This document shows, piece by piece, positions 555 through 44,395 of a stretch of 64,000 bases of DNA; position 1 is the stretch's first letter, and the number at the start of each line of letters is the position of its first letter. Where the stretch lies: the NCBI GenBank assembly GCA_903813345.2, contig CAIIXF020000005.1, positions 16,931,375-16,995,374 of the forward strand, given 5' to 3'. A program made the position numbers and the translations under genes. The DNA is from Owenia fusiformis. Its lineage: Eukaryota; Annelida; Polychaeta; Sabellida; Oweniidae. Below the pieces are notes generated by a model. That model was not told where the DNA came from, ran no database searches, and saw only the letters and a list, made by a program, of their open reading frames with translations.

Positions 555-3500
555 TTTTTTTTTTTTTTTTTATTTATTTATTTATTTCATATAATACATA
601 CAATAGTTAACAATGAAGTGGGTGACACAAAATTTGTGTATATTCCCACAGATGGAGTGAGTAAAATACAAGTATGTTACATTATGCAGTTTGGGGATCT
701 GCCGTGGCATGCCCTCGACAAAAAATATAATATGTGCCATCAAATTGCCCAAGGAAGGAATTAAAGTTGCAATAAATATTTCTTGGTTTGTTTTTTCATG
801 AAAATGGTACTTTTGATGGATTGAATGTGCGGGGGTAGTTGGTTCCAAATATTAGGTATAGAATACGCTAACATTGATTTTCCATAGTTAGTGCGGGTTT
901 TTGGCTTGTCATAAGATTTCTTATTTCTTGTGTTGTAATTGTGTCTATTCTCAACTGTTTTGAAAAAAGATGGGAATATTTGTTTGTAATTATCCTTGTC
1001 GTTGATCCATTTAAACATAAAAATATATCTCTGCTGCTTATTTATTTCAAATATGTTCAATATTTTTAAGTCATGAAAAAGAGGTAGGGAGTGAGCTCTA
1101 AAATCACTATTTGTTGCAATTCTTACAAATTTTTTCTGTGAGAGATGAAGGGTATTTAGTAATGTACAGCCTGCTTCACCCCATACTATATTTCCATAGA
1201 TAAGGTATGAATAAATCAAAGAATAATATATACTAAGTAGGCTTTTGACATTTAATAAATGCTTCACTTTGTATAATATACCAATGGTTCTTGATATTTT
1301 CATGTTTACGGATGTTATGTGATTTTTCCAGGTTAAATTTTGATCAATTATGATTCCTAAAAAGTTAATATGTGACACCTGTTCAAGTACTTTGTCATTC
1401 ATAGTGACATTTATTTCATTTTTATTATAATGCTTTTGTCTTGAAGAAAATATAATATATTTAGTTTTCTTAGCATTTAATGAAAGTTTATTTGTGGCTA
1501 TCCATTCCTCGATTAGTTTCAGTTCAGCATTCAAAGCATTTGTGATTTCATTAAGATTTTTTCCTTGTATTAACAGATTAGTATCATCTGCAAATAGCAC
1601 AAAAAATAATCGTGGAGAGGATAAGTAAATGTCATTGATATATATGATAAAAAACAAGGGACCTAGTACAGAGCCTTGTGGAATTCCACATGTAATTATC
1701 TCAGAATCTGAAATAGTGTCTTTGTAACAGTTTTTTTGGATTCTATTAGAAAAGTAACTTTTGACCCATTCCAGTGCAACACCACGTATCCCATAAAACT
1801 CAAGCTTTTGAAAGAGAATATTGTGGTCTATAGTATCGAATGCTTTAGAGAAGTCAAGAAATAACCCTATAGAGAATTCACCTTTATCTATAGAATGTCT
1901 AATTTTTTCAACAAATGTGAGTACAGCCATGAATGTTGACTTTTTTTCTCGAAAACCAAATTGATAAAGATACAAAATTTCTATTTTGTCGAGAAAGGAA
2001 GTCAGGCGATGATGCATTAGTTTTTCAAGCAATTTGGAGAAGACTGGTAAAATCGAAATAGGTCGATAATTTGTAAAAAGTTGACTGTCCTCCTTTTTAT
2101 GAATTGGAATTATTTTTGCAATTTTTAATTTGTCAGGAAAAATACCATTTGTTAGAGATAAATTGAAAATGTGTAGTAATGGTAATTGGAATGCCTTACC
2201 ACAATGCTTAATTATGGAAGGTTTGAAATCATCAAAACCGGCCGCAGAGTTTTTTAATTTAGATATTTCCATGTCTAACTCATTAGAGTCAATTGGATTC
2301 AAAAATAAAGTTGAAGCTTGTCTGCCAAGATTTTTCATGTAGTCTAAAGGACTTTTATTTGTAGAAGGAATTTGAGCTGCTAGGGTTTCACCTACCCTTG
2401 AAAAGAAGGAGTTAAATTGGTTAGCAATGTCAAGTTTATTACTTATTTCAGAATTGTTATGGAAAAAAGAGTCTGGGATATTGTGGTATTTATTTTTTCT
2501 TTGGAGAATTTCATTAATAATTTCCCAATTAGCCTTAATGTTTCCTTGATTTTCCTCAAATTTTCTACTAAAATAACGTTTATGTGCTGATCTTATGATT
2601 GTTTTTAGCATTTTTGAGTAGACTTTATAATTTGCCTTATTTTGATTTGTCGGTAAACGAAGATATTTCTTTTATAATTTGCTTTTTTGTCTTACAGATA
2701 CAAGTATAGCTGTTGTAATCCAAGGTTTTTCATTATTATTATATAATTTAACAGATATTGTTTTTATTGGGAAACTTTCATCATAAATTTCTTTAAGGCG
2801 GTTTTCAAATAAATTGTAAGAAGTATTTGCGTTGTCACTATTCAAAATATCTGCCCATGATTCTTTTGCTAATTTTTCTTGGAAAGTAGTGAGATTATTG
2901 TCAGAGTATTTTCTAATTGATTTGTTAATTACTTTTATCTGATGAATCGGTTTATTAAAAGTAGCAAATATAGGGAAGTGATCTGAAATGTCATTAAAAA
3001 TTATTCCACATAATCCATTTTTGATATCATTTGTAAAAATGTTGTCAATTAATGTTGCTGTACTTGAAGTCACCCTGGTTGCTTTGTAAATAAGTGGTAT
3101 TAAATTATAAGATGTCATGATGTTGTAGAAATTTTCAGTTAGCTCATGCTGATTGGTCTTAAATAAATCAATATTAAAATCACCCATTACATAGTTTGTT
3201 TTGTTTTCTCTGGATAAATTATTAAAATAGACTTCTAGACTATTATTAAATTCTTCGATATCTACATTAGGAGGCTTATATATACAGGTTAAGAGTATGT
3301 TTTTGCCATTGCTTACAATAACCTCAATTGTCAAAACATCGCATCCTAAATGATTAAATTGAAGATCTGGTCTTTCTTTAACGTTAATAGTATCCTTGAT
3401 ATAGAAACCAACACCACCCCCTCTAGTTGATCGAGATTTAAAATAACCTTTGAAATTCATTAGTTTTGAATATTGTGATTCTTGATCCTCATAAAGCCAT

Positions 3501-3713
3501 GTTTCAGAAAGGCCAACAATCGATGCTCCCTTATCAAGTGATGACAAAAGATTGACTAATTTCCATTGATTTGACGGCATACTTCGAATATTACAATGGA
3601 CTATAGCCATATCAACATTGTTGTTAGCATTCAAATTATTGTTCAGTTCAGTTAAGGTTACATATTCGCTCTTTGCCATAATTTCATTGGTAGTCACATC
3701 GAAAGTGGATTAT
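555..3713 (-). mobile_element. Non-LTR retrotransposon (CR1/Jockey-like LINE), 5'-truncated, one stop codon
   Basis: On the minus strand an apurinic-type endonuclease is followed by a reverse transcriptase in the same frame. The 3' end is marked by a run that reads on the minus strand as several AAAT units followed by poly-A (about 555-587). No separate ORF1 is visible upstream, so the copy is probably 5'-truncated or was cut by the MITE at 3714-4100, which starts within about 17 bp of the ORF start. The 5' boundary is therefore approximate, and I found no convincing target-site duplication. The domain order and motifs fit the CR1/L2/Jockey group. I cannot name the exact clade. Confidence 0.85.
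761..3697 (-). pseudogene. LINE ORF2: endonuclease plus reverse transcriptase, interrupted by one in-frame TAA
   Basis: Two open frames (2675-3697 and 761-2671) lie in the same register and are separated only by a TAA at 2672-2674. They therefore form one ORF of about 977 residues plus the stop. The N-terminal part starts with an endonuclease motif like IVHCNIRSM and has a catalytic ET pair (LSETWL), GDFNIDL and SDHFPI. The C-terminal part has DFSKAFDTIDH, GIPQGSVLGP and the catalytic FADD box of reverse transcriptase, and then a typical LINE C-terminal region. The sequence after the stop (KKYLRLP...) continues normally, so this is a nonsense mutation in an otherwise good copy and not two genes. 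An ATG at 2611 would only give an RT fragment. Confidence 0.85.
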
Positions 3714-29359: not shown

Positions 29360-32300
29360 CTATCTATGTCTATGTCAATAATCCGCAAAAGGCTAATAAG
29401 CCCATATAAAGCAGATATATAATTTAACAGTGATAGAATTTGAATAGAATATAATTTAAAACCTTAACATTTAAAAATAGATCTATGGTTTACAACTCAT
29501 TTTACCTGGGGAGACTGTCAGGCTAACCGCGTTGACATCACCCCTCTTTACCAGTAGTGCAGGCTTGTTGCTGTGCACTGGGGACCCTTTACATTAAAAC
29601 ATAGATCTATATTAAAAACACACCTATTTAATTGCAGTTATTGACATAGGCATAGTATGATGATTTAAAACTACTTAGACTGTCACAGTCTAAGATGTCA
29701 CCAGGTAGAGTGTTCCATTTAGCTATTGTCCTAGGGAAATAGCTAAATTTGTATGCATCCGTTCTAGTTGATGGTTGTATGAACTTAGAAGGATGATACA
29801 ACCTAGTGTTGGTATTGATCTGTTGGCGGAAGTATGGAGGCACGTCGATGGCTGCTAGGTTCTGCTTTCCTTTGTAGAAAAGGAAAACTCTAGCAGCCTC
29901 TCGACGCTCCTTCAGTGGCTCCCACTGTAGGTCTTGAAGAGCTTTGGTGACGCAGCCTGGTTCCCTTGAGTGACATTTGGTTACAAACCTGGCTGCTCTT
30001 CTCTGTACCTGTTCCAACATATCAATATCTTTTTGTCGGTACGGATCCCATGCCGAGCTGGCATACTCTAAATTAGGCCGGACTAGTGACTTATACGCCT
30101 GAGCCTTCACTTTTTCAGGGCATTGATGGAGGTTGCGCCTGAGAAATCCAAGCACCTTATTGGCTTTGGATACAATAGTTTGAATATGTGTAGTCCAGCG
30201 TAAGTTATTTGTGATGTCAATTCCTAGGTATGGGATGTGTGTTACCGACTTAAGGTTTTCCCCTAGCATGGTGTAATTGTGCATGATAGGGGATTTACCT
30301 TTGTGAATATTTAGCACATAGCATTTTGATGGATGGAATTTCATTTGCCATGTTGATGCCCAGGAGACCAGTTTATCAAGATTCTCCTGTAGTGTTAATG
30401 CATCTTGCTTGCTTTCGACTGTCATGAATAAAAGACTGTCGTCGGCAAAAAGCTTAAGACTGGCTGAGGATGATAGGTTATTGCCCATATCATTGATATA
30501 AACAAGGAAACAGAGTGGTCCAAGAACTGTTCCTTGAGGAACTCCTGATTTTACTGGAGTTTTTGAACTTGATTCACCATCGAGCACTACCTGTTGTGAT
30601 CTTCCCACAAGCCAGGATCTGAACCAGTTCAAGTTATTATTGCGAATTCCATAATAGTCGAGTTTGAGCAAGAGGCGTTCGTGAGCCACCGTGTCAAACG
30701 CTTTGGAAAAGTCTAATACCAACATGTCTGTTTGTTTATTGTTGTCGAGGGCCCGAGCTATATTCTCTATTGTATTGACAAGTTGTGTTTCACATGAGTG
30801 CTTTGACCTGAATCCATGTTGGAATTTTACTAGAATTTCATAGAGGTCAAAGTGGGCCATAACATGATGGAATATAATATGTTCCATTATTTTACATGGA
30901 ACTGACGTCAGAGATACAGGCCTGTAATTCACAGCCTCATCTCTTCGTCCCTTTTTGTAGATAGCAGTAACATTGGCATGTTTCCAGTCCATAGGCACTA
31001 AGCCTTCATCGATAGACTGTTGAAAAATTATTTGAAGGAATGGTGATATGCTGTCACTGCATTCCTTCAGGACCCTAGTCGGAATAAGATCGGGTCCAGT
31101 GGCTTTTGATGGATTTAGGCCAGTTAGCAATTTGTGAATTCCTTTTGTCGAAATTTTGATATTTGGCATTTCAGGAATTTGACTAGGTACCATTGTCGGT
31201 AGAGTGGCATCCTCATCTGTGAATACAGAATTGTATTGGTCATTGAGGATGTTTGCTTTCTGGGCGGCGTCTGTTATTTCGTCGCCATCTTTGTTACGCA
31301 GCACGCTGATACCTGATGCATCTTTGCGTTTAGACTTTATGTAGCTCCAGAAGCGTTTGGTAATGCCTTTGTGCTGAACATTCTCATTTATGATTTCGCT
31401 TTCATCAATGTCAAGCAGATCGTTGATGTAGCGCTGATGTTCTTTACGAATTTCACTATGGATTAATTTCCGTAGTGATTTGTATTTATGCCAATGATGA
31501 GGTTCATTTGAACGTTTGGCAACATTATATCGTCTTTGTTTCTGTCGGATCATTCTCAGTATCCTGGTGGTAATCCAGGGTACTTTGAATTTCCCGCTTA
31601 GAGTTTTACTTGGAATATGCTCATTGATTGACGATATTAATGTAGATTTGAAGGAGGACCAGTTGTCTTCAACTGATCTACTTTCACAGTTCTCTTTGAA
31701 TTCGCTGAACTTAGATCGTAGAGTCTCTTTAAGTCCAGTCCATTCTGCCCGCTTGTATATGTGGACCTTACGAGGCTTCTTTTTCTGAATTTTCATTTTT
31801 AGGTTTATATCACATAGGACTGCCTCGTGATCACTCATGCCCGGAACCACCGAGATTCTTTCTGCGAGGTTTGGGCATGTAGTGAATACTAAGTCAAGGA
31901 TGTTATTTTGTCTAGTTGGTTCCTTGACTAGTTGGGTTAGGCCATGATCATCAGTTATTGTAATCATCTTCTCATTAAGATCATTAGAATATTGAGAATT
32001 AGGCCTTATAGTTCCTTTCTCCCAATCGATGTCTGGTAAGTTGAAGTCACCACATAGGAAGATGTTTTTCATATGTGTATTACCATTAGCATAAAGTTTA
32101 TCGAGGGATGTTTGGAGCGAGTCCAAAGCACCAGTATCGTTGTTTGGTTGACGATAGAAGGATCCAAACAGTATGTCCCCATTTGATAGAGATGCTTTGG
32201 ACCATATGATTTCGCAATCAGCTGTCGCTTCATATTCGACTGATATGAAGTCACTTTTGACTGCGATAAGGACACCGCCAGCACCTTTCTTTCGGTCTTT

Positions 32301-33176
32301 CCTGTATGGAGGTGGGCTAAGGTAGTCTTGACCGAATATCCATTTGCTGTCGATGGTGTTGTCCAGGTGAGTCTCACAGCCTATGATGACATCTGGCTTG
32401 TGAGTTTCAATTAGTTGTTGAAGGTGTAGTTGCTTCTCATGACTAATTAGACTGCGGAAGTTGATAGACATGAGGCGAACCTGGTTTCGCCTCTTTCGTG
32501 CAGTCAGCCTCGGTGGTTCTGATTCGGTAGAATCAGATGATGATGACGAATTGTCAAGATCAGAGAGAGCGCTGAAGGAGTTTGTTACCGAGGAATGAGA
32601 AAGAGTGGAGTCATTGAAGAAGCTGTTGGAAAAATTAGGTAGGGCACATCCAGGACAGATCCAGGTGAAACTGCCCGCGTCAAGAAAAACATTGTACTCA
32701 GCAGGGGAAACATTGCCACATTTGATGTGTACCCATGTGCCGCATTCATCGCATTCAAGGGCGCGATGATTCTTGGCAACTGCTTTGTGGCACATACCGC
32801 AGGGAAATTTAACAGGACCTGGGTTTGGGTGGATGTCACCACTAAGAATAAGACATAGGAAGAGCAGTGGTGTGGAAGATTTCTTGTGAAGGATTCCACG
32901 AGAGCCAACAATCTTATGGAAACGTCGCAGTTGCATCAACTGTGTGTATGACTCTGTTGAAGGTAAGTGGTTTCCATGATCACAGAAAAATGACTGGACT
33001 GCGAAAACAAAGCAGAGAAGGAGCAATCCATATCCTTGGAAACCCATGACGAAGAGGTAGGTAAAACCCGTTAGCTGAAAATAAGAAAATTCGCGCAAAA
33101 ATATGAAAAATACCGCGAAAACCGAAATTTGAAAAATACGAAAATTAAAACTGATTTATCCCCAAAAGGGGGTCCT
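29360..33176 (-). mobile_element. Full-length CR1/L2-like LINE, 3.8 kb, inserted in a MITE with GCCAT duplication
   Basis: Flanked by the direct repeat GCCAT at 29355-29359 and 33177-33181. The uninterrupted MITE at 3714-4100 has this site once, which proves the insertion. The 5' UTR is only about 78 bp, one long ORF follows, and the 3' UTR is about 270 bp. The 3' end is a short ATAGAC/ATAGAT repeat, not poly-A, as in CR1/L2-type elements. The ORF is unbroken, so this copy is probably young. Confidence 0.92.
29628..33098 (-). CDS. LINE polyprotein: 2A-like motif, PHD finger, endonuclease, reverse transcriptase (1156 aa)
   Basis: A single open frame. Residues 1-40 are hydrophobic and signal-like. 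A second hydrophobic run leads into D88-I-H-P-N-P-G-P95, close to the 2A ribosome-skipping consensus D(V/I)ExNPG/P. A PHD finger follows with C100, C103, C116, C119, H124, C127, C148, C151. The endonuclease (about 205-425) shows SINFRSL, GCETHL, GDFNLPDIDW and SDHEAV. The reverse transcriptase has DFSKAFDTVAH, GVPQGTVLGP and the FADD box, and the C-terminal LINE domain includes LVRPNLEYASSAWDP. The product would copy the element RNA into DNA by target-primed reverse transcription. If 2A works, a 94-residue hydrophobic peptide is released from the enzyme. Start codon: first ATG in frame, 78 bp from the element end. Confidence 0.93.
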   Translation of the reverse strand: MREFSYFQLTGFTYLFVMGFQGYGLLLLCFVFAVQSFFCDHGNHLPSTESYTQLMQLRRFHKIVGSRGILHKKSSTPLLFLCLILSGDIHPNPGPVKFPCGMCHKAVAKNHRALECDECGTWVHIKCGNVSPAEYNVFLDAGSFTWICPGCALPNFSNSFFNDSTLSHSSVTNSFSALSDLDNSSSSSDSTESEPPRLTARKRRNQVRLMSINFRSLISHEKQLHLQQLIETHKPDVIIGCETHLDNTIDSKWIFGQDYLSPPPYRKDRKKGAGGVLIAVKSDFISVEYEATADCEIIWSKASLSNGDILFGSFYRQPNNDTGALDSLQTSLDKLYANGNTHMKNIFLCGDFNLPDIDWEKGTIRPNSQYSNDLNEKMITITDDHGLTQLVKEPTRQNNILDLVFTTCPNLAERISVVPGMSDHEAVLCDINLKMKIQKKKPRKVHIYKRAEWTGLKETLRSKFSEFKENCESRSVEDNWSSFKSTLISSINEHIPSKTLSGKFKVPWITTRILRMIRQKQRRYNVAKRSNEPHHWHKYKSLRKLIHSEIRKEHQRYINDLLDIDESEIINENVQHKGITKRFWSYIKSKRKDASGISVLRNKDGDEITDAAQKANILNDQYNSVFTDEDATLPTMVPSQIPEMPNIKISTKGIHKLLTGLNPSKATGPDLIPTRVLKECSDSISPFLQIIFQQSIDEGLVPMDWKHANVTAIYKKGRRDEAVNYRPVSLTSVPCKIMEHIIFHHVMAHFDLYEILVKFQHGFRSKHSCETQLVNTIENIARALDNNKQTDMLVLDFSKAFDTVAHERLLLKLDYYGIRNNNLNWFRSWLVGRSQQVVLDGESSSKTPVKSGVPQGTVLGPLCFLVYINDMGNNLSSSASLKLFADDSLLFMTVESKQDALTLQENLDKLVSWASTWQMKFHPSKCYVLNIHKGKSPIMHNYTMLGENLKSVTHIPYLGIDITNNLRWTTHIQTIVSKANKVLGFLRRNLHQCPEKVKAQAYKSLVRPNLEYASSAWDPYRQKDIDMLEQVQRRAARFVTKCHSREPGCVTKALQDLQWEPLKERREAARVFLFYKGKQNLAAIDVPPYFRQQINTNTRLYHPSKFIQPSTRTDAYKFSYFPRTIAKWNTLPGDILDCDSLSSFKSSYYAYVNNCN

Positions 33177-35515: not shown

Positions 35516-38500
35516 ATGGATGATGATTGGGACAATTACATCGCTTCAAAGAAGAAAATAAAAACTCCCCCTCCCCAAAAGAATACATTTCAAAGAGAAT
35601 TAGATGCAAAGATGAAAGACCGACGTGCACGTGGACTTACTACAGACCTAACAGAAGATGAGAGTGATGATGGACTGGGAAGTGATAATGGTAAATTTGA
35701 TCTTCATAAAGTATTGGTTTGACTGCTTCTGTCCAGGCAAATGATTTCACAAATTGATTTGTAGTTTTCAATTGAAGTACTTTTATTCTTGGTATGAAAT
35801 TAATTAGTTTTTGAGAATGCCAGTGGTAACTTTAGATTTTCTTTTCTAAAGTCTTGCCTTTTACCACTTTTCTTCAAGTTTCCAGTCAAAATAATGAATG
35901 CTACATATGAAATCTATGTTTACTAAGCTTAGCTAAGCTTACTATGGGCTGCTTAGTTCTTGAGTACTTTCTTAGAAGGTAACCAACACAATGTGAATAT
36001 GGTATTATACTCTAACACAATTTCTTCTTGTGTGCGTAATATTTACATTTTGTATTTTCCAGAGCTTTTATCTGGTTTCAACATGACTCAAAAATCGGCA
36101 GCTAAACCATGGACACCACCAAACTTACGCAAGAAAAATGAAATGAACGATTCACGCAAATCACCATCCATGGTTGAACATGGTAACAAAAATAGAAAGT
36201 CTCCCCTTGATCCGAAGATGAACGGTGATAAAGGTAGTAAAGTTCCTACAAAAGAGGAACTTTTATTTGGAACATCTACTAGGAAATCACTTGGAGATGA
36301 CGACGATGACTACCTAAGTTCTTATAGGAAGAAACAGCAAACACCCAGTCCGAGAAACAAGTATGTACATAAAGTGTTTTACAGTACAATGTACTTGTTT
36401 TGGTAAAATTATAGTGTAATAAAATGTCTCTTGACTGCAACAGTAATTTGATATTTCCTTATCCCATATTTCAATAATTTAGATAGATTACGAAATAAAA
36501 ATCAATTACAGATAGAGTATTAATATTTAAATCAATTATGAAACTAAAATGAAAAAACAAAACTTCCCACTTTGAATATCAAAATGGTCCTCATGTAATC
36601 TAGCAATTTCCATTGTTTGATCAATGCAATTTTATTTGCGCTACAGGCAGCTTGACCCACTTGGGGGTGAAAGCCAGCAAAGGAAACCATGGACTCCTCC
36701 CACCATGAGGAAGAACCAAGCACAAGAAGATGACAAGGAGAATGAACCAAAAACAAGTAAGTACAAGTAACCATATTAGTACTAATGAAGTAATTAATGA
36801 AAGACATTATAAAAATGGGCAATTTAAGGCACAACCAATTTGTTGATTGATAGGCCTGTTCTTTACATTAGCCAGTTGAGGTACACATAGGCCTGCAAAT
36901 CTCCCAAATTGTATGCTATTAAGGGGTAGATTAATGCACAATAGTTTGATGCCCTTAATACACCATTTGAATGTGTTAACTTCGGTAATCATGAAAAAAT
37001 GTTCACAATAAATCCCCTCTGTTTTTTTCAAATCAGCTCATTCCCATGAAGGACAGTCATTCAGATTTATTATTGAGTACCATGTACAGCTGTGTTATTT
37101 TATGGGAATGATCTTTCTTTTACAGGATTTGGCAGAAAATCTCCTCATCCGTTAGATGAAGAAAGGCCAAAACCATCACCACGACAACGTAAATCTTCAA
37201 CAGAGGAAGTCGAGAAGCCATCAAGGTAATAAAGGCATATTTTAATGACTGGTTAAAGGCCCAATGTAAATTTTAGATAATTTCAGATTGACCCAATGTA
37301 TGTGATTTGTGAAAAAAATTTTTTTGAAAAATGTTGAAAGCAACTTTTATGTCACAAGAAATCATATTTGAATTTTAAAAATTGTAAGAGACTTTGTTCT
37401 TTCTCACCTTCTATAAGTTTTTAGGTAGAAAATACACCTAACAATTTATCTGAACACCATACATATTTCAGATTTAAAAGCAGAGATAAATCTCCACTGT
37501 CTGGTCGGCCTAAACCAAAGGCACGAGGTACTCCAACAAAAGGTCGTCTTGGTCGAAATGAAGATGATTCAGAAGAAGAACTAGAAAAACTTACCAAGCC
37601 TCGTCCTAAAGCTAGGGGAACACCAACAACTGATATATTTGGCACAAGCCGTAAGAAGAGTTATTTTGATGATGAGGATGAGGATGTTGATAATGAAGAT
37701 GATAAGAAGAAAAGTAAGAATAGAGGAAGTCCAACTGGGAGGAAAACACCTACTGGGAAAGCAAGGCCAGTGACACCAAAATCAAAAACAGACAATGAGA
37801 AATCAAAAAAAGATGGAAAAAAGACACCAGAACCCAAAAAATCTTCATTATTTGATTTTCTCGATGATGATAAACCTAAACCAAAACAACGAAAGAAGAA
37901 GTCCATATTTGATGAAGATTCACAAGATGAAGATGATCGTAGAGGAAGAAGTCCATTTGGAGAAAAATCTAGAAAAAGTCCATTTGATGAACGATCAAGA
38001 AAAAGCCCATTTGATGAACGATCAAGAAAAAGTCCATTTGAAGAGAGATTAAGATCAAAAGATATTGACTTTGATGAAAGAAGGGGAAAGGGTAGAAAAT
38101 CTCCATTAGATGAAAGGAAATCTCGTTTTAGACAAGATGATTCAGAGGAAGAGGAAACTGAACTGAGACAACAAAAACATCGATTCGGAGGACCGCCAAA
38201 ACTCAGAACTCAATCTCGAAATCAAGAAGATGAAGATGAAAATGAAGATGACTATAGACCTAAACCACATGCCAGAGGGCCACCTAAGCTTAGAAAAAAT
38301 AGATACTCTGATGATGATGATGAGATGTTTGACAATCATAAAGAGAAAGGTCGACACAGGCCACGTTCTCGAGGGGACGAAAGAGACGATCGGGAAAGTT
38401 CAGTCTGCAGAGATGTAACCAGGGACCCTGATAAGAAAGACAGAAGAGACTCTGAGGAAGAGACTAACAGGGAACCAGGACAACAAAGGTAAAACTGGGG

Positions 38501-41500
38501 GTAAAACATGTAGACATTGAAATTTCTCTCTAGCTATTGCACGTTTACTTTTAAAAATATGTTTTCCTCAAATGAAGACTGCACTTAGGGTATTTTAGAA
38601 ATGGACGCTTTTTTACACAGATGCTTTTTATAGACCAATCCCTCCGATTTTCTTACCAGTGATACATCATTCAATTATCTATCAACTCTGAAGATTTGAA
38701 GACAATATATATATTACATGTTGATATATCTTTATTTCCGTGAAGGAGGTACAGGTACCCCGGGACCGACATTTACGTCACACATTCTGAAGCTATTTTA
38801 GATTGTTTAACATGCAATGCAGTTGAATGCAGGCTGAACAAAACAAACCATTATGGTCATGAATTACCCCATTTTGTTATGCCATAGTAATAATATAATA
38901 ATTTTGAATATTTTATCATCACTATGTGGTATTCATGCCACATTCATTCCACAGGGCCCTCTAAATAGTTTCCACCAAGTGCTACATGTACACAATTCCT
39001 CATCCTCTTAACTCAAGATTGTGAGACAAGGCTGAATCCATTCTCTGACATGGTAGCAAGATGCAGTTGCACGGGTTGTAAGGTTGTTTTATTTCATCAA
39101 TATCAATAAACCTGCATCCTTTCTCTATAGAAATAAGTAGTATAGAAATAAACAAGTCACATATGAGCAGATCTGGACAATATGGTGCATTGGCCAAGGG
39201 CTCAATTTTGAGGTCCAGGGATATTGTTTTCTGAACATTTTGAGATCTGTGGGCAGGTGCATTGTCCATATGGAGTAGGGTGTTCCCTTCTCTCACCACC
39301 CCTTTCTTCCACTGAATGCTTTCTCAAATTGACCTGCAAACCCCTTCCATACAACACTCTGACATTACAATACTTTCTGTTTATGTGTTACCAGTCAGCA
39401 AAAAATTTTAAACAACACAACACTTGTTGCATATAAAATGTTCAAATCTAACTGAAATTTACCAAACTGGCTAAAATCTGAATATGTGACGTAAATGTCG
39501 GTCCCGGGGTACCTGTACCTCCTTCAAGGAAATAAGGATATATCAATATGTATTATATATCTTGTCTTCAAATCTTCAGAATTGATAGATAATTGAATGA
39601 TGTATTACTGGTAGGAAAATCAAAGGGATTGGTTTATAAAAAGTATCTGTGTAAAAAAGCGTCCATTACTTATTGATCACCCCTCGTATCTAAGCACAAG
39701 TGCAAAAGGAAAAGGACCAATGGAACCTTAAGCAAGAAAAAGCTCTTTAAGTGTATACCAGTCATAAGAAAATCAATGCCCATATATCACAAACCATGAT
39801 CTTACGTGAAAAGAAACAATGTCTAATACTCCCTTTCCCCACCATTCAAGAACCAATATCGCAAAAATATTAGAAAATAGACTTGGAATAGGAATGATGT
39901 GAGGCAAAGATATTCTATAATTGAAACAATTTTTGTAAAGATTGTTCAATAGCCCTGACCTTCCTTTAATCTTAGCTTATGTTTTATATTGAATGAAATT
40001 ACTAAAAACTATATAGTGAAGCCACCTTGCTGTGACATTTATTACAGAAAGCCAACTAAGCAGCGTAAGGAGAAGCAAATGTATGATGACATCATAGATA
40101 AGATAGCTGATGCACAGGCTGATGAAAAGACAATGCAGTTTATAGACCCGGATGAAGAACAAAAACAGAAAAGGTGGGCAGCAGGTTTCTTTTACTATAT
40201 GCCACATGAGTTTCTTTTACTATATGCCACACGAGTTTCTTTCACTATATGCCACATGAGTTTCTTTTACTATATGCCACATGAGTCTTTTCACTATATG
40301 CCATATGAGTTTCTTTTACTATATGCCACATGAGTTTCTTTTACTATATGCCACATGAGTTTCTTTCACCATATGTCACATGAGTTTCTTTTACTATAGG
40401 TCACATGAGTTTCTTTCACTATATGCCACATGAGTTTCTTTCACTATATGCCACATGAGTTTCTTTCACTATATGCCACTTGAGTTTCTTCTACTATATG
40501 CCACGTGACTTTCTTTTACTATATACCACACAAGTTTTTTCACTATATGCCACATGAGTTTCTTTTACTATATGCCACATGAGTTTCTTTCACTATATGC
40601 CACATGCGTTTCTTTTACTATATGCCACACGAGTTTCTTTCACTATATGCCACATTAGTTTCTTTCACTATATGCCACATGAGTTTCTTTACTATATGCC
40701 ACATGAGTTTCTTTCACTATATGCCACTTGAGTTTCTATTACGATATGCCACGTGACTTTCTTTTACTATATACCACACAGGGCTCTTTTACTATATGCC
40801 ACATGAGTTTCTTTCAATATATGCCACATGAGTTTCTTTATGCCACATGCGTTTCTTTTACTATATGCCACATGAGTTTCTTTCACTATATGTCACATGA
40901 GTTTCTTTCACTATATGCCACATGAGTTTCTTTTACTCTATGCCACATGAGTTTCTTTTACTATATGCCACATGAGTTTCTTTTACTATATGCCTCATGA
41001 GTTTCTTTTACTATATCCCATATGATCTTCTTTCATATGATTAATTTTCAAATAAATGTTTTTCTAAAAATCGATTCTGTCCCTTGAAAACCATTAAAAA
41101 GTCACCTAACTAAATTTTAATGAATTAAAAATAGGTCACAAAAGTTTTAGTATAAAATGTGGTGAGGCTATTCATAAAATCCACAAAAATATCCATCAAC
41201 ATCCAACCCCTACTTGTATGAAATCCTATCACATATCTGTAAACTGTATTAACAAAGACAATACATGGAAATATAGTCAGGAAATGTTCCTGAATATTTG
41301 ACAAATGCCAGTTAAGATACTAGAGTGCAGGCAGGCTTTCTTTCTTAAAATATTTGGTGTGCTGGTAGTTTTAAGTTAACTCCTTACCTTTAAATCAATT
41401 AATGAGGTTTTCTTGCAATGCTTCATTCCAGCAATAAATCAAAAACAGGTGCAACAAAAGTTAAACCAACAGCACGATATGGAACTCCTAATAAAGAAGA

Positions 41501-44395
41501 CAATTCACCAAAGTTCACTGACACAACATCAATTAGGCAAACGATTTATGATGAGTGGAAGAAGGAGAGACTGGAAAAGGCGAAAAAAGATAAGATTGAG
41601 AAACTGAAGAAAGAGAAGGAGGAAGAGGAAAAGAAGAGAAAGGTATGGAAACCTGCAGTCATTTCAACTTGATTTCATAATTTGCATATAATGTTTCAAA
41701 ATGGTTAGCATGCAGTAAAACCTGTCTAATCTGAACACCTCTGGGACCAACCAAAAGTGTTTGGATCAGCAGGTGTTCACATTTCAAGGTTTCTTAAATG
41801 TGAGCAGCTGAATGTGAGTCAGTGAGAGATAACAAATGAGGGACTGAGCAAAGAAGATCACTTTGAGAGGTTTCGGATTTGGGGTGTTTGGATGTACAGA
41901 TTTTACTGAACTTTATACAGTTATTTACCCAATGAGAGGTCGACTTAAATAAAACCCCACAGAGGGATTTTACAAATTTTACAGAGAACTGCACGAATGG
42001 ATCTATTATTGACAACTCATGACAACTAATGACAACTAATTTGAGTTCTCGTATTTTGTATTTATTAAATTCTGTCAGCCTTTCCCTCAGAATTATTATC
42101 ATGATGTCATGATGTGATGTCATCTTCAAGAGCTATGCATTGCTAGGTTGGACATCTGCCTTATTCTATGAGAGTATCTGATTTACTCTTAAGGCATATG
42201 TCTAGCTCTAACAGGGCTTCTTTCTTACTCTAAGAAGGTATCTGCCTTTGAGAGGGCATCTGTTTTCCTCTGAGGGTATATGTCACATTGTAAGGCCGCC
42301 TTATATTACTTTTAAATGTATGTACATAAAATATATACAGGGTGGGCCAAAAAAACGCCACTTTTTTCAAAATGCTATAACTTTTTTAGTTTTTGATACA
42401 AAATCATAATTTGCACACCGAATGAAACTTGAGGTTGTTATCTAGCCATGGATCATAAATTATACCTTTTTACTTGAATAAAATATGTCACCAGCTTCTC
42501 ACTTAACATGTGGTGTGCCATGAGAAATAAGCATAATTTGCAAAATGTTCCTGAACTGATACGGCCTGATGATTGCCAAGCTAATAGCCCTGATGCAAAC
42601 CCCAGTGAGTATAGGGTATGGGGAGGTCTCCAGGAGATGATATGAAGGCACCCAATCTAAAAAATTGCTCAACTAAAGCTGGCAATAAGACAGGTTTAAA
42701 AAAACGTAGCTAACATTTCATTGATACCTCTATATCAGCAAGGTGACTAAAACTAAAATATATCATCAATTAGGGTGGCAGACCAATTGAACTCCACTTT
42801 TAGATCAAATACAATCCAATTTGAAGGACTTGTTACATTATATTATTACTAAGAACCTCTGGCACTATATATCTGCAAAATTTGGGAAAAATTGTTCATT
42901 GTTTCTTGTGTATCAGGATGCTGAGGATAAGCTACTTGAATCCAAGGCTTCCTACAATGCCTGGCATGAGAGCAAGAAAGGCTGTCTTAGTGATAAGAGG
43001 AAACAAATGTTGAAAGCTGAGCAAAAGAAAAAGAAAGAAGCTGAAGATTTGGTAGAGAAAAAGAAAGAAGCTGATTTGGTAAGACAACATTAAAGTAAAC
43101 CAAATCATGTTCAGTTAAAATATGTGCGAAATTCATTTCATTTTACTTAACCTCTCCTTCCTAAGAATGAATAACTGGAATTGAAATTATGTTATTTTAC
43201 CCTTGTTGTTTGAAGATAGAACAATGCCATTTCTCTATTGTTAAGCAGATATAACTTTACTCTCCATTCTTGTGCATTTGTATTATAACTTAATTCTTCT
43301 ATCCCTTATTGTGCAGTCATTTCATAACTTTATTCTTCATTCGTGTGCAGTCATTCCATTACTTTATTCTCCATTATTGAATAGTCATATCATAACTTTA
43401 TTCTCCATTATTGCACAGTCATACCGTAGCTGGAAGGAAAACAAGGATGCTGTTATCAAGGAAAGAGAGAAAAAGAAGAGACGTGAAGAACTGAAGAAGG
43501 TACAAGCTGAAGAGGAAAAAAAGACAGAGCAGAAGAAAGATGCTGAGTCCTCATTCGTTGGATGGTGTGTATACTTTAAAAAGTTTCTAATAAATTATAT
43601 GTAAGATTATTTTGCATTGATATTTTGACCGAAATTACCCTTAAAGGTAATGATTAACTTGTTTTGAAATATCAGTATTTGAGTTCAAGCAGTTGATTTA
43701 ACCTTACACTTTACAGGAAGAAGAAAAAAGACACTGTGATCCTGAGGAATACAGTAGATCTAGAGAAAACGCAGAAGTTAGAGGAGAGAGAGAAAAAGAG
43801 AGAAGAAAGGAGAAAAGAAAGAGAAGCAAGTGAACAGTATGAACAATGGTTGGAGAAAAAGGTATTTCTACATAATTTCGTAAAATTATTTACAAAATTT
43901 TGCTTTCAACTTTGCTGTCTGTGAGGGCTATAGAAATAATAAAAGGAGGAAAGAATTAGTTCTTCATAGTTGCAACAATTGTTTCCCGCAAATTTTCAAC
44001 CATTGTTTATTGGAATACTCCACATCAATGTGATGTATAACAGTACACTGTGCCCTTATCATTGATGTTATAGATTTGAATTTTAGAGAGAGGGTATATG
44101 AGAAATAATTTTTTCCTTTTGACACTGTATTTTGCTACATGTGCTAATTCATTGTTGCCATTGTTCAATGGTCATGTATTCTTTTATTTGAGCTTTTGTG
44201 GCTAACTCTATCCACTAAAATACAGAGTACTGTGAAAACCCCACATTCACTTAAACTTGTGACTGTTCATTTCACTTTCAGGAAAGGGACCAGTTAGAGA
44301 ACAGGAGAAAACAAAGACAAAGAGAGCGTGAGGGTTATGTTACCCCAGTTGCAGCCTGGAGCCCAGCTAGCAGAACTGTGCCTTTTGGCAAATAA
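35516..44395 (+). CDS. MAP9: MAP9 (ASAP)-like microtubule-associated protein, 867 aa, 11 coding exons
   Basis: Exons: 35516-35690, 36063-36360, 36647-36756, 37126-37225, 37472-38488, 40048-40173, 41432-41642, 42917-43078, 43419-43564, 43717-43861, 44282-44395. All have GT..AG borders and intact frame. The N-terminal TFQRELDAKMKDRRARG (24-40) matches the conserved MAP9 start. KPWTPP occurs twice (exons 2 and 3). Exon 5 is long, charged and disordered, with a repeated RSRKSPFDE motif. Exons 7-11 code for Lys/Glu-rich coiled coil with WKKER, AWHESK, SWKENK and EQWLEKK repeats, ending in AAWSPASRTVPFGK like the vertebrate PPWSPPSRTVF end. MAP9 binds spindle, astral and ciliary microtubules. It is longer than the human protein (647 aa), mostly because of exon 5. 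A 5' UTR acceptor ends at 35506. Introns carry several mobile elements. Confidence 0.9.
38601..39666 (-). mobile_element. Decayed mariner-like transposon with 186-bp terminal inverted repeats, in MAP9 intron 5
   Basis: Arms at 38601-38787 and 39481-39666 are inverted copies: ATGGACGCTTTTTTACACAG on the left and its reverse complement ending GCGTCCAT on the right, both reaching a GGTACCCCGGGACCGACATT block. Between them, on the minus strand (39000-39299), is a transposase fragment with LLHMDNAPAHRS, PYCPDL and CDLF, the second catalytic Asp region of mariner/Tc1 (IS630-type) transposases. Only about 100 residues remain, so it is a dead element. Confidence 0.85.
40186..41035. repeat. 25-bp minisatellite in MAP9 intron 6, about 34 copies
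   Basis: The unit is TATGCCACATGAGTTTCTTT followed by TACTA, with TTTCACTA variants. It starts about 12 bp after the 5' splice site of MAP9 exon 6 (exon end 40173). Confidence 0.92.
41713..41908. mobile_element. MITE, family C, in MAP9 intron 7
   Basis: Starts CAGTAAAACCTGTCTAATCT and ends in the reverse complement of CAGTAAAATCTGTACATC. Internal GAACACC and GGGACCA words match 5917-6371. Confidence 0.7.
42338..42660 (+). mobile_element. Mariner remnant in MAP9 intron 7
   Basis: It starts after a TA with CAGGGTGGGCCAAAAAAACG, typical of mariner ends. At about 42575-42645 it encodes NSPDANPSEYRVWGGLQEMI before a stop, matching the PDLNP..Y.VWG..QE block of mariner transposases. The 3' inverted end was not found, so the copy is truncated. 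Confidence 0.7.
43250..43422 (+). repeat. 34-bp tandem repeat that duplicates a 3' splice site of MAP9
   Basis: Five units, the first diverged, of ATAACTTTATTCTCCATTAT followed by TGCACAGTCATACC. The AG dinucleotides end at 43316, 43350, 43384 and 43418, exactly 34 bp apart. The last one is the acceptor that fits the next exon (SYRSWKENK). Each unit carries its own pyrimidine-rich tract. Confidence 0.85.

Follow-up and report, generated by a model that had tools for sequence, protein, structure and literature searches.

A 34-bp tandem array that repeats a 3' splice site of MAP9 in an apparently lophotrochozoan genome

A tandem array of acceptors at the intron 7/exon 8 boundary

The final 168 nt of intron 7 of a MAP9 gene form a tandem array in which the acceptor of exon 8 is repeated. 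The explanation that we favor, with a probability of about 0.68, is that a 34-bp segment across the intron 7/exon 8 boundary was duplicated in tandem to give a minisatellite of the kind described as mirages in lancelets, with decoy acceptors upstream of the working one, and that the array reflects ordinary repeat turnover that chanced to include a splice boundary rather than a selected switch.

The gene lies on the forward strand of the window, the whole 64-kb stretch of DNA analyzed here, in which a ten-exon model (36083 to 44395) has agreeing phases and a terminal stop and encodes 802 residues. The C-terminal part of the product resembles Microtubule-associated protein 9 of PDB entry 11yj (E value, 2.7e-10), and a Pfam search with the MAP9 part gave no family above the cutoff, the top one being CCDC34 with 21.9 bits versus a cutoff of 35. 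A genome search for a MAP9 paralog without the array found none, all five matches being exons of the same gene, and a search of the assembly for a second haplotype returned a single match to the locus. Exon 7 (42917 to 43078, + strand) is followed by a phase 0 donor after 43078 (GATTTG/gtaaga) and, in the model with matching phases, by exon 8 (43419 to 43564, + strand). The acceptor ending at 43418 is consistent in frame with the remaining MAP9 exons, in agreement with the sequence-only reading, which had taken this last acceptor to give the conserved exon. Two other repeats occur in the gene. A 27-bp coding repeat of 3.7 copies in exon 4 (37945 to 38044) encodes repeats similar to RKSPFDERS, and a 25-bp minisatellite of 34 copies (40185 to 41033) starts about 12 nt past the exon 5 donor (40173) and does not span it.

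TRF places the array at 43251 to 43423, with a period of 34, 4.9 copies, 74% matches, and a score of 154. Four AG acceptors end at 43316, 43350, 43384, and 43418, exactly 34 bp apart, and a T/C-rich run precedes each of them (11 to 13 pyrimidines in 16 positions); both TRF and inspection thus bear out the earlier description of four spaced acceptors, each with its own pyrimidine tract. All units lie on the + strand. U0 (43251 to 43284) has lost its acceptor, with CAT instead of CAG. U1 (43285 to 43323) is 39 nt long and contains the AG ending at 43316 and a TAAC with its A at 43288, while U2 (43324 to 43357) contains the AG ending at 43350 and a TAAC with its A at 43327. In U3 (43358 to 43391), a TAG ends at 43384 and TAAC is changed to TTAC. 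U4 (43392 to 43425) contains the canonical acceptor ending at 43418 and a TAAC with its A at 43395, and it extends into the exon. The gene match and the AGs in register uphold the proposal that a MAP9 3' splice site has been copied. The 34-mer around 43418 shares 29 of 34 bases with the 34 bp upstream, versus a best of 24/34 and a mean of 17.8 for 66 other acceptors, which were picked as clear single acceptors and therefore have lowered repeat-match values. The four 34-nt units (U1 excluded) have 24 to 30 of 34 bases in common, the last two being the closest at 30/34, and the array is thus not very young. A CAG near 43249 was rejected as an additional acceptor; it scores -18.7 at the tested position, and its use would lead to an early stop.

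In the 34-bp unit, about 21 nt correspond to the end of the intron and probably 13 nt to the start of the exon, and the array would then be made of copies of the boundary itself. TCAT, with which exon 8 starts (TCATACCGTAGCT), follows all four AGs. Of the first 13 exon positions, 10 agree with the unit, more than expected from shuffled exon heads (P = 0.00019), and the likeness then collapses, with 1 match in the next 8 nt. An array that is wholly intronic, with a chance likeness of the exon head past TCATA, is unlikely in view of these matches and of the TCAT after every AG, although the TRF end at 43423 would fit it, as would the lower match once the first five bases are left out (5/8; P = 0.016). 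This last value makes the 13-nt exon extent probable rather than certain. A branch-point-like TAAC lies 23 nt ahead of both 43418 and 43350 and 28 nt ahead of 43316, with TTAC before 43384, and the position of TAGC in the exon corresponds to TAAC in four of the five units. Exon-derived bases may thus now act as the branch site of the real acceptor, provided that the unit was copied from the exon.

Acceptor strength and predicted products

In a matrix built from 16 MAP9 and ETF1 acceptors in the window, 43350 scores 5.7, 43316 scores 3.7, 43418 scores 1.6 (1.56), and 43384 scores -2.1. The addition of 33 myosin acceptors leaves the order unchanged (5.2, 4.0, -0.35, and -3.5, respectively), but these 33 were chosen by the matrix itself (scores of >3), and the fair yardstick is the 16 window sites only. 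In leave-one-out scoring, those sites range from -0.9 to 11.9, and 1 of 16 falls below the 1.56 of 43418. The eight ETF1 acceptors were placed by frame and by the eRF1 protein; Pfam identifies eRF1_1 in one ETF1 exon. In the 49 acceptors of this genome, T occurs at -5 in 96% and at -6 in 90%, a TTNCAG-like consensus that is partly forced by the selection of the 33 with the matrix.

Since 43316 and 43350 outscore the canonical 43418, competition of the upstream copies with it is plausible, and since 43418 lies below both in both matrices, the site signals give no reason to expect it to dominate. Purine-rich exon sequence may favor the adjoining splice site. Exon 8 is 73% purine, versus 33% for the array, and the adjoining purine-rich exon is what distinguishes 43418 from the upstream copies. 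The mRNA would accordingly be spliced mainly at 43418, presumably because this is the only copy that adjoins the full purine-rich exon, and the upstream copies would be mostly decoys with some leaky use.

The predicted products of such leaky use differ. Splicing at 43316 would insert 102 nt, or 34 residues, with no stop codon, as the sequence-only reading had it. Splicing at 43350 (+68 nt) or 43384 (+34 nt) would shift the frame and run into early stops, giving transcripts open to nonsense-mediated decay; translation likewise agrees with the frameshifts that had been proposed for the middle two acceptors. The statement that the extension is exactly 34 codons is right as to length, but the figure has no significance of its own, as any three 34-bp steps amount to 34 codons. 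The insert is hydrophobic and unlike its surroundings, as also claimed, with a hydropathy of 1.15 versus -1.97 for exon 8, and the hydrophobic residues follow from the T-rich tract, which encodes them anyway. An open frame of 102 nt is expected by chance with a frequency of 0.30 in dinucleotide shuffles, 0.16 in a consensus repeat with mutations added up to the divergence seen here, and 0.07 in 102-nt stretches of the other MAP9 introns, and it was therefore rejected as a sign of coding. The unit consensus contains one stop in the frame of the 34-codon extension, at which U3 carries TTA instead of TAA; this change is suggestive.

The TTA in U3, the 34 open codons, and the score of 43316 above that of 43418 are the points in favor of a functional alternative acceptor at 43316, whose use would give a genuine MAP9 isoform carrying a hydrophobic stretch within the coiled-coil region. 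We consider such an isoform quite improbable. Its open frame falls within chance expectation, its composition is very unlike that of its neighbors, and no insert is present at the exon 7/8 joint in the alignment to the distant MAP9 chain of 11yj. It is also doubtful that appreciable use of 43350 and 43384 lowers MAP9 output through nonsense-mediated decay, with the number of units tuning the dose. Such unproductive splicing would agree with the top score of the array at 43350, its TAAC at 23 nt, and the early stop in its product, and a unit of the human ABCA7 variable-number tandem repeat (VNTR), which carries a splice donor, can reportedly be retained, with a premature stop (PMC5954066). However, unit retention in ABCA7 is described as constant across VNTR sizes, with exon 19 skipping being what varied (PMC5954066), and lancelet mirages are reported to leave regular splicing intact (PMC3087553, PMC3902484). 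A broader proposal, that boundary minisatellites form habitually throughout the genome of this lophotrochozoan and that the MAP9 array is a splice rheostat tunable by length, has in our judgment a very low probability. If it were true, the strong frameshifting copy would lower output, the third copy upstream would give the 34-residue isoform, and alleles with different repeat numbers would differ in MAP9 dose or form. Because boundary repeats are known in lancelets and are present in other genes here, the additional acceptors are more readily seen as a side effect of repeat expansion than as a purpose-built switch.

Repeated splice sites elsewhere in the genome

The MAP9 array is not the only one of its kind in this genome: three other sampled genes have repeated splice sites at exon edges read from frames (strand - for all three). 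In the myosin locus L017, five copies of TTTCAG/GCCACA lie at an exon start (1000 to 1300), mostly 61 bp apart, the last three steps being 61 bp. In the myosin locus L011, four donors reading ACAG/GTAGGG or similar lie exactly 34 bp apart at an exon end (2307 to 2440); the first three units are identical, and this array is thus probably young. In L051, a kinase gene that is LATS-like by a motif, the donor GTAAGT opens a 23-bp array of 35 copies (from 1979). In another kinase locus, L059, an intronic array downstream of a kinase exon (approximately 2083 to 2170 and around) has units with the acceptor-like ATATTTCAGG.

The three cases are included in a survey of exon edges in which acceptors were not preselected and which covered 79 of the 222 listed myosin and kinase matches, taken as lying inside the sampled loci, with 77 acceptor and 77 donor zones scorable. 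Arrays touch 7 of these 154 zones (4.5%), versus 564 of 5,000 random zones (11.3%), and the enrichment of arrays at exon edges that was sought in the sampled loci is thus absent, although the comparison is not quite like with like, as the random zones lie outside matches and each 106-nt edge zone has 45 nt within one. Tandem arrays with a period of at least 10 make up 6.8% of the 194,725 unique bases of the sampled myosin and kinase loci. The listed matches themselves are distributed over C1 to C12 and a few small contigs. Besides the L017 acceptor and the L011 and L051 donors, the touched zones are the L021 donor, which has a weak two-copy repeat, and the L008 donor, L029 donor, and L011 acceptor, which have nearby, nonspanning arrays.

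No array spans any of the 66 acceptors with a clean assignment, and such cases are thus uncommon at 3' sites; one of the acceptors, in L011, is preceded by an array that stops short of it. These 66 comprise 33 myosin acceptors (kept from the 42 with enough flank among 55 of the 84 listed matches), 17 of 30 kinase acceptors, and the 16 of the window, and the sample is biased against mirages, since the 22 dropped exons mostly have no single clear acceptor; one of them, in L017, is a mirage.

Relation to known boundary repeats

Mirages have been described in amphioxus in Adh3, the globin genes BflGb6 and BflGb9, TnC, and PGBD5 as minisatellite-like tandem copies of an intron/exon boundary, at the 5' or 3' site, many of them with AG/GT (PMC3087553, PMC3902484). 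Their units are 10 to 160 bp long, regular splicing is reported to be undisturbed, and the BflGb6 mirage has six units in one haplotype and three in another (PMC3087553, PMC3902484). The MAP9 array likewise consists of tandem boundary copies with splice signals: its short units stand in tandem (4.9 copies with a period of 34 and a score of 154), and the unit spans the boundary and repeats the signal (four AGs in register, with the exon head matching at 10/13 and at 5/8 past the first five bases). It differs in that its copies are more diverged (24 to 30 of 34 bases), that the gene is MAP9, and that its host is apparently a lophotrochozoan. By structure, it therefore appears to be a mirage, a kind already known, in a new lineage.

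Two further systems are comparable in part. In intron 18 of human ABCA7, a VNTR of 25-bp units with a splice signal lies beside an exon and can have units retained, but it involves a donor rather than an acceptor, and it has far larger arrays, a disease association, and RNA evidence (PMC5954066). Intron gain from proto-splice sites in Drosophila also involves tandem duplication that copies splice signals inside a gene, but there exonic AG/GY motifs are copied to give a new intron, (PMC2891723), whereas the MAP9 array repeats an acceptor that was already in place, with no sign of an added intron. A literature search found boundary minisatellites named mirages for lancelets only, and with annelid and mollusc terms no such arrays are announced in titles or abstract openings. 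An earthworm metallothionein paper reports minisatellites in introns, with no boundary copies mentioned in the available part of its text.

The MAP9 array is of modest interest alone, and its interest comes from the lineage together with the other arrays in the same genome. They suggest that boundary minisatellites apparently also occur, at several genes, in an animal group distant from lancelets. Each such array offers a natural experiment on the choice that the spliceosome makes between adjacent, nearly identical sites and on whether arrays contribute to alternative splicing or to changes in introns.

The GC content is 34.5% in 100,497 bases of the sampled loci; that of lancelets is about 41%. 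A muscle myosin exon compared with PDB chains gives about 228 to 229 bits with scallop, 205 with vertebrate, 205 with squid, 200 with tarantula-type, and at most 184 with insect chains. Both the low GC content and the nearness to scallop speak, indirectly, against a cephalochordate host, and amphioxus was judged an unlikely source on these grounds. A search for mitochondrial COX1 gave no match. Long open frames whose translations resemble non-LTR retrotransposon proteins lie at 29631 to 33155 and 764 to 3709 of the window, both on the - strand. On contig C9 (37986009 to 37994334, - strand), a muscle-type myosin gene has about 12 exon-sized matches in a row that all cover one part of the myosin head profile (positions of approximately 18 to 84), in what appears to be a large cluster of mutually exclusive exons.
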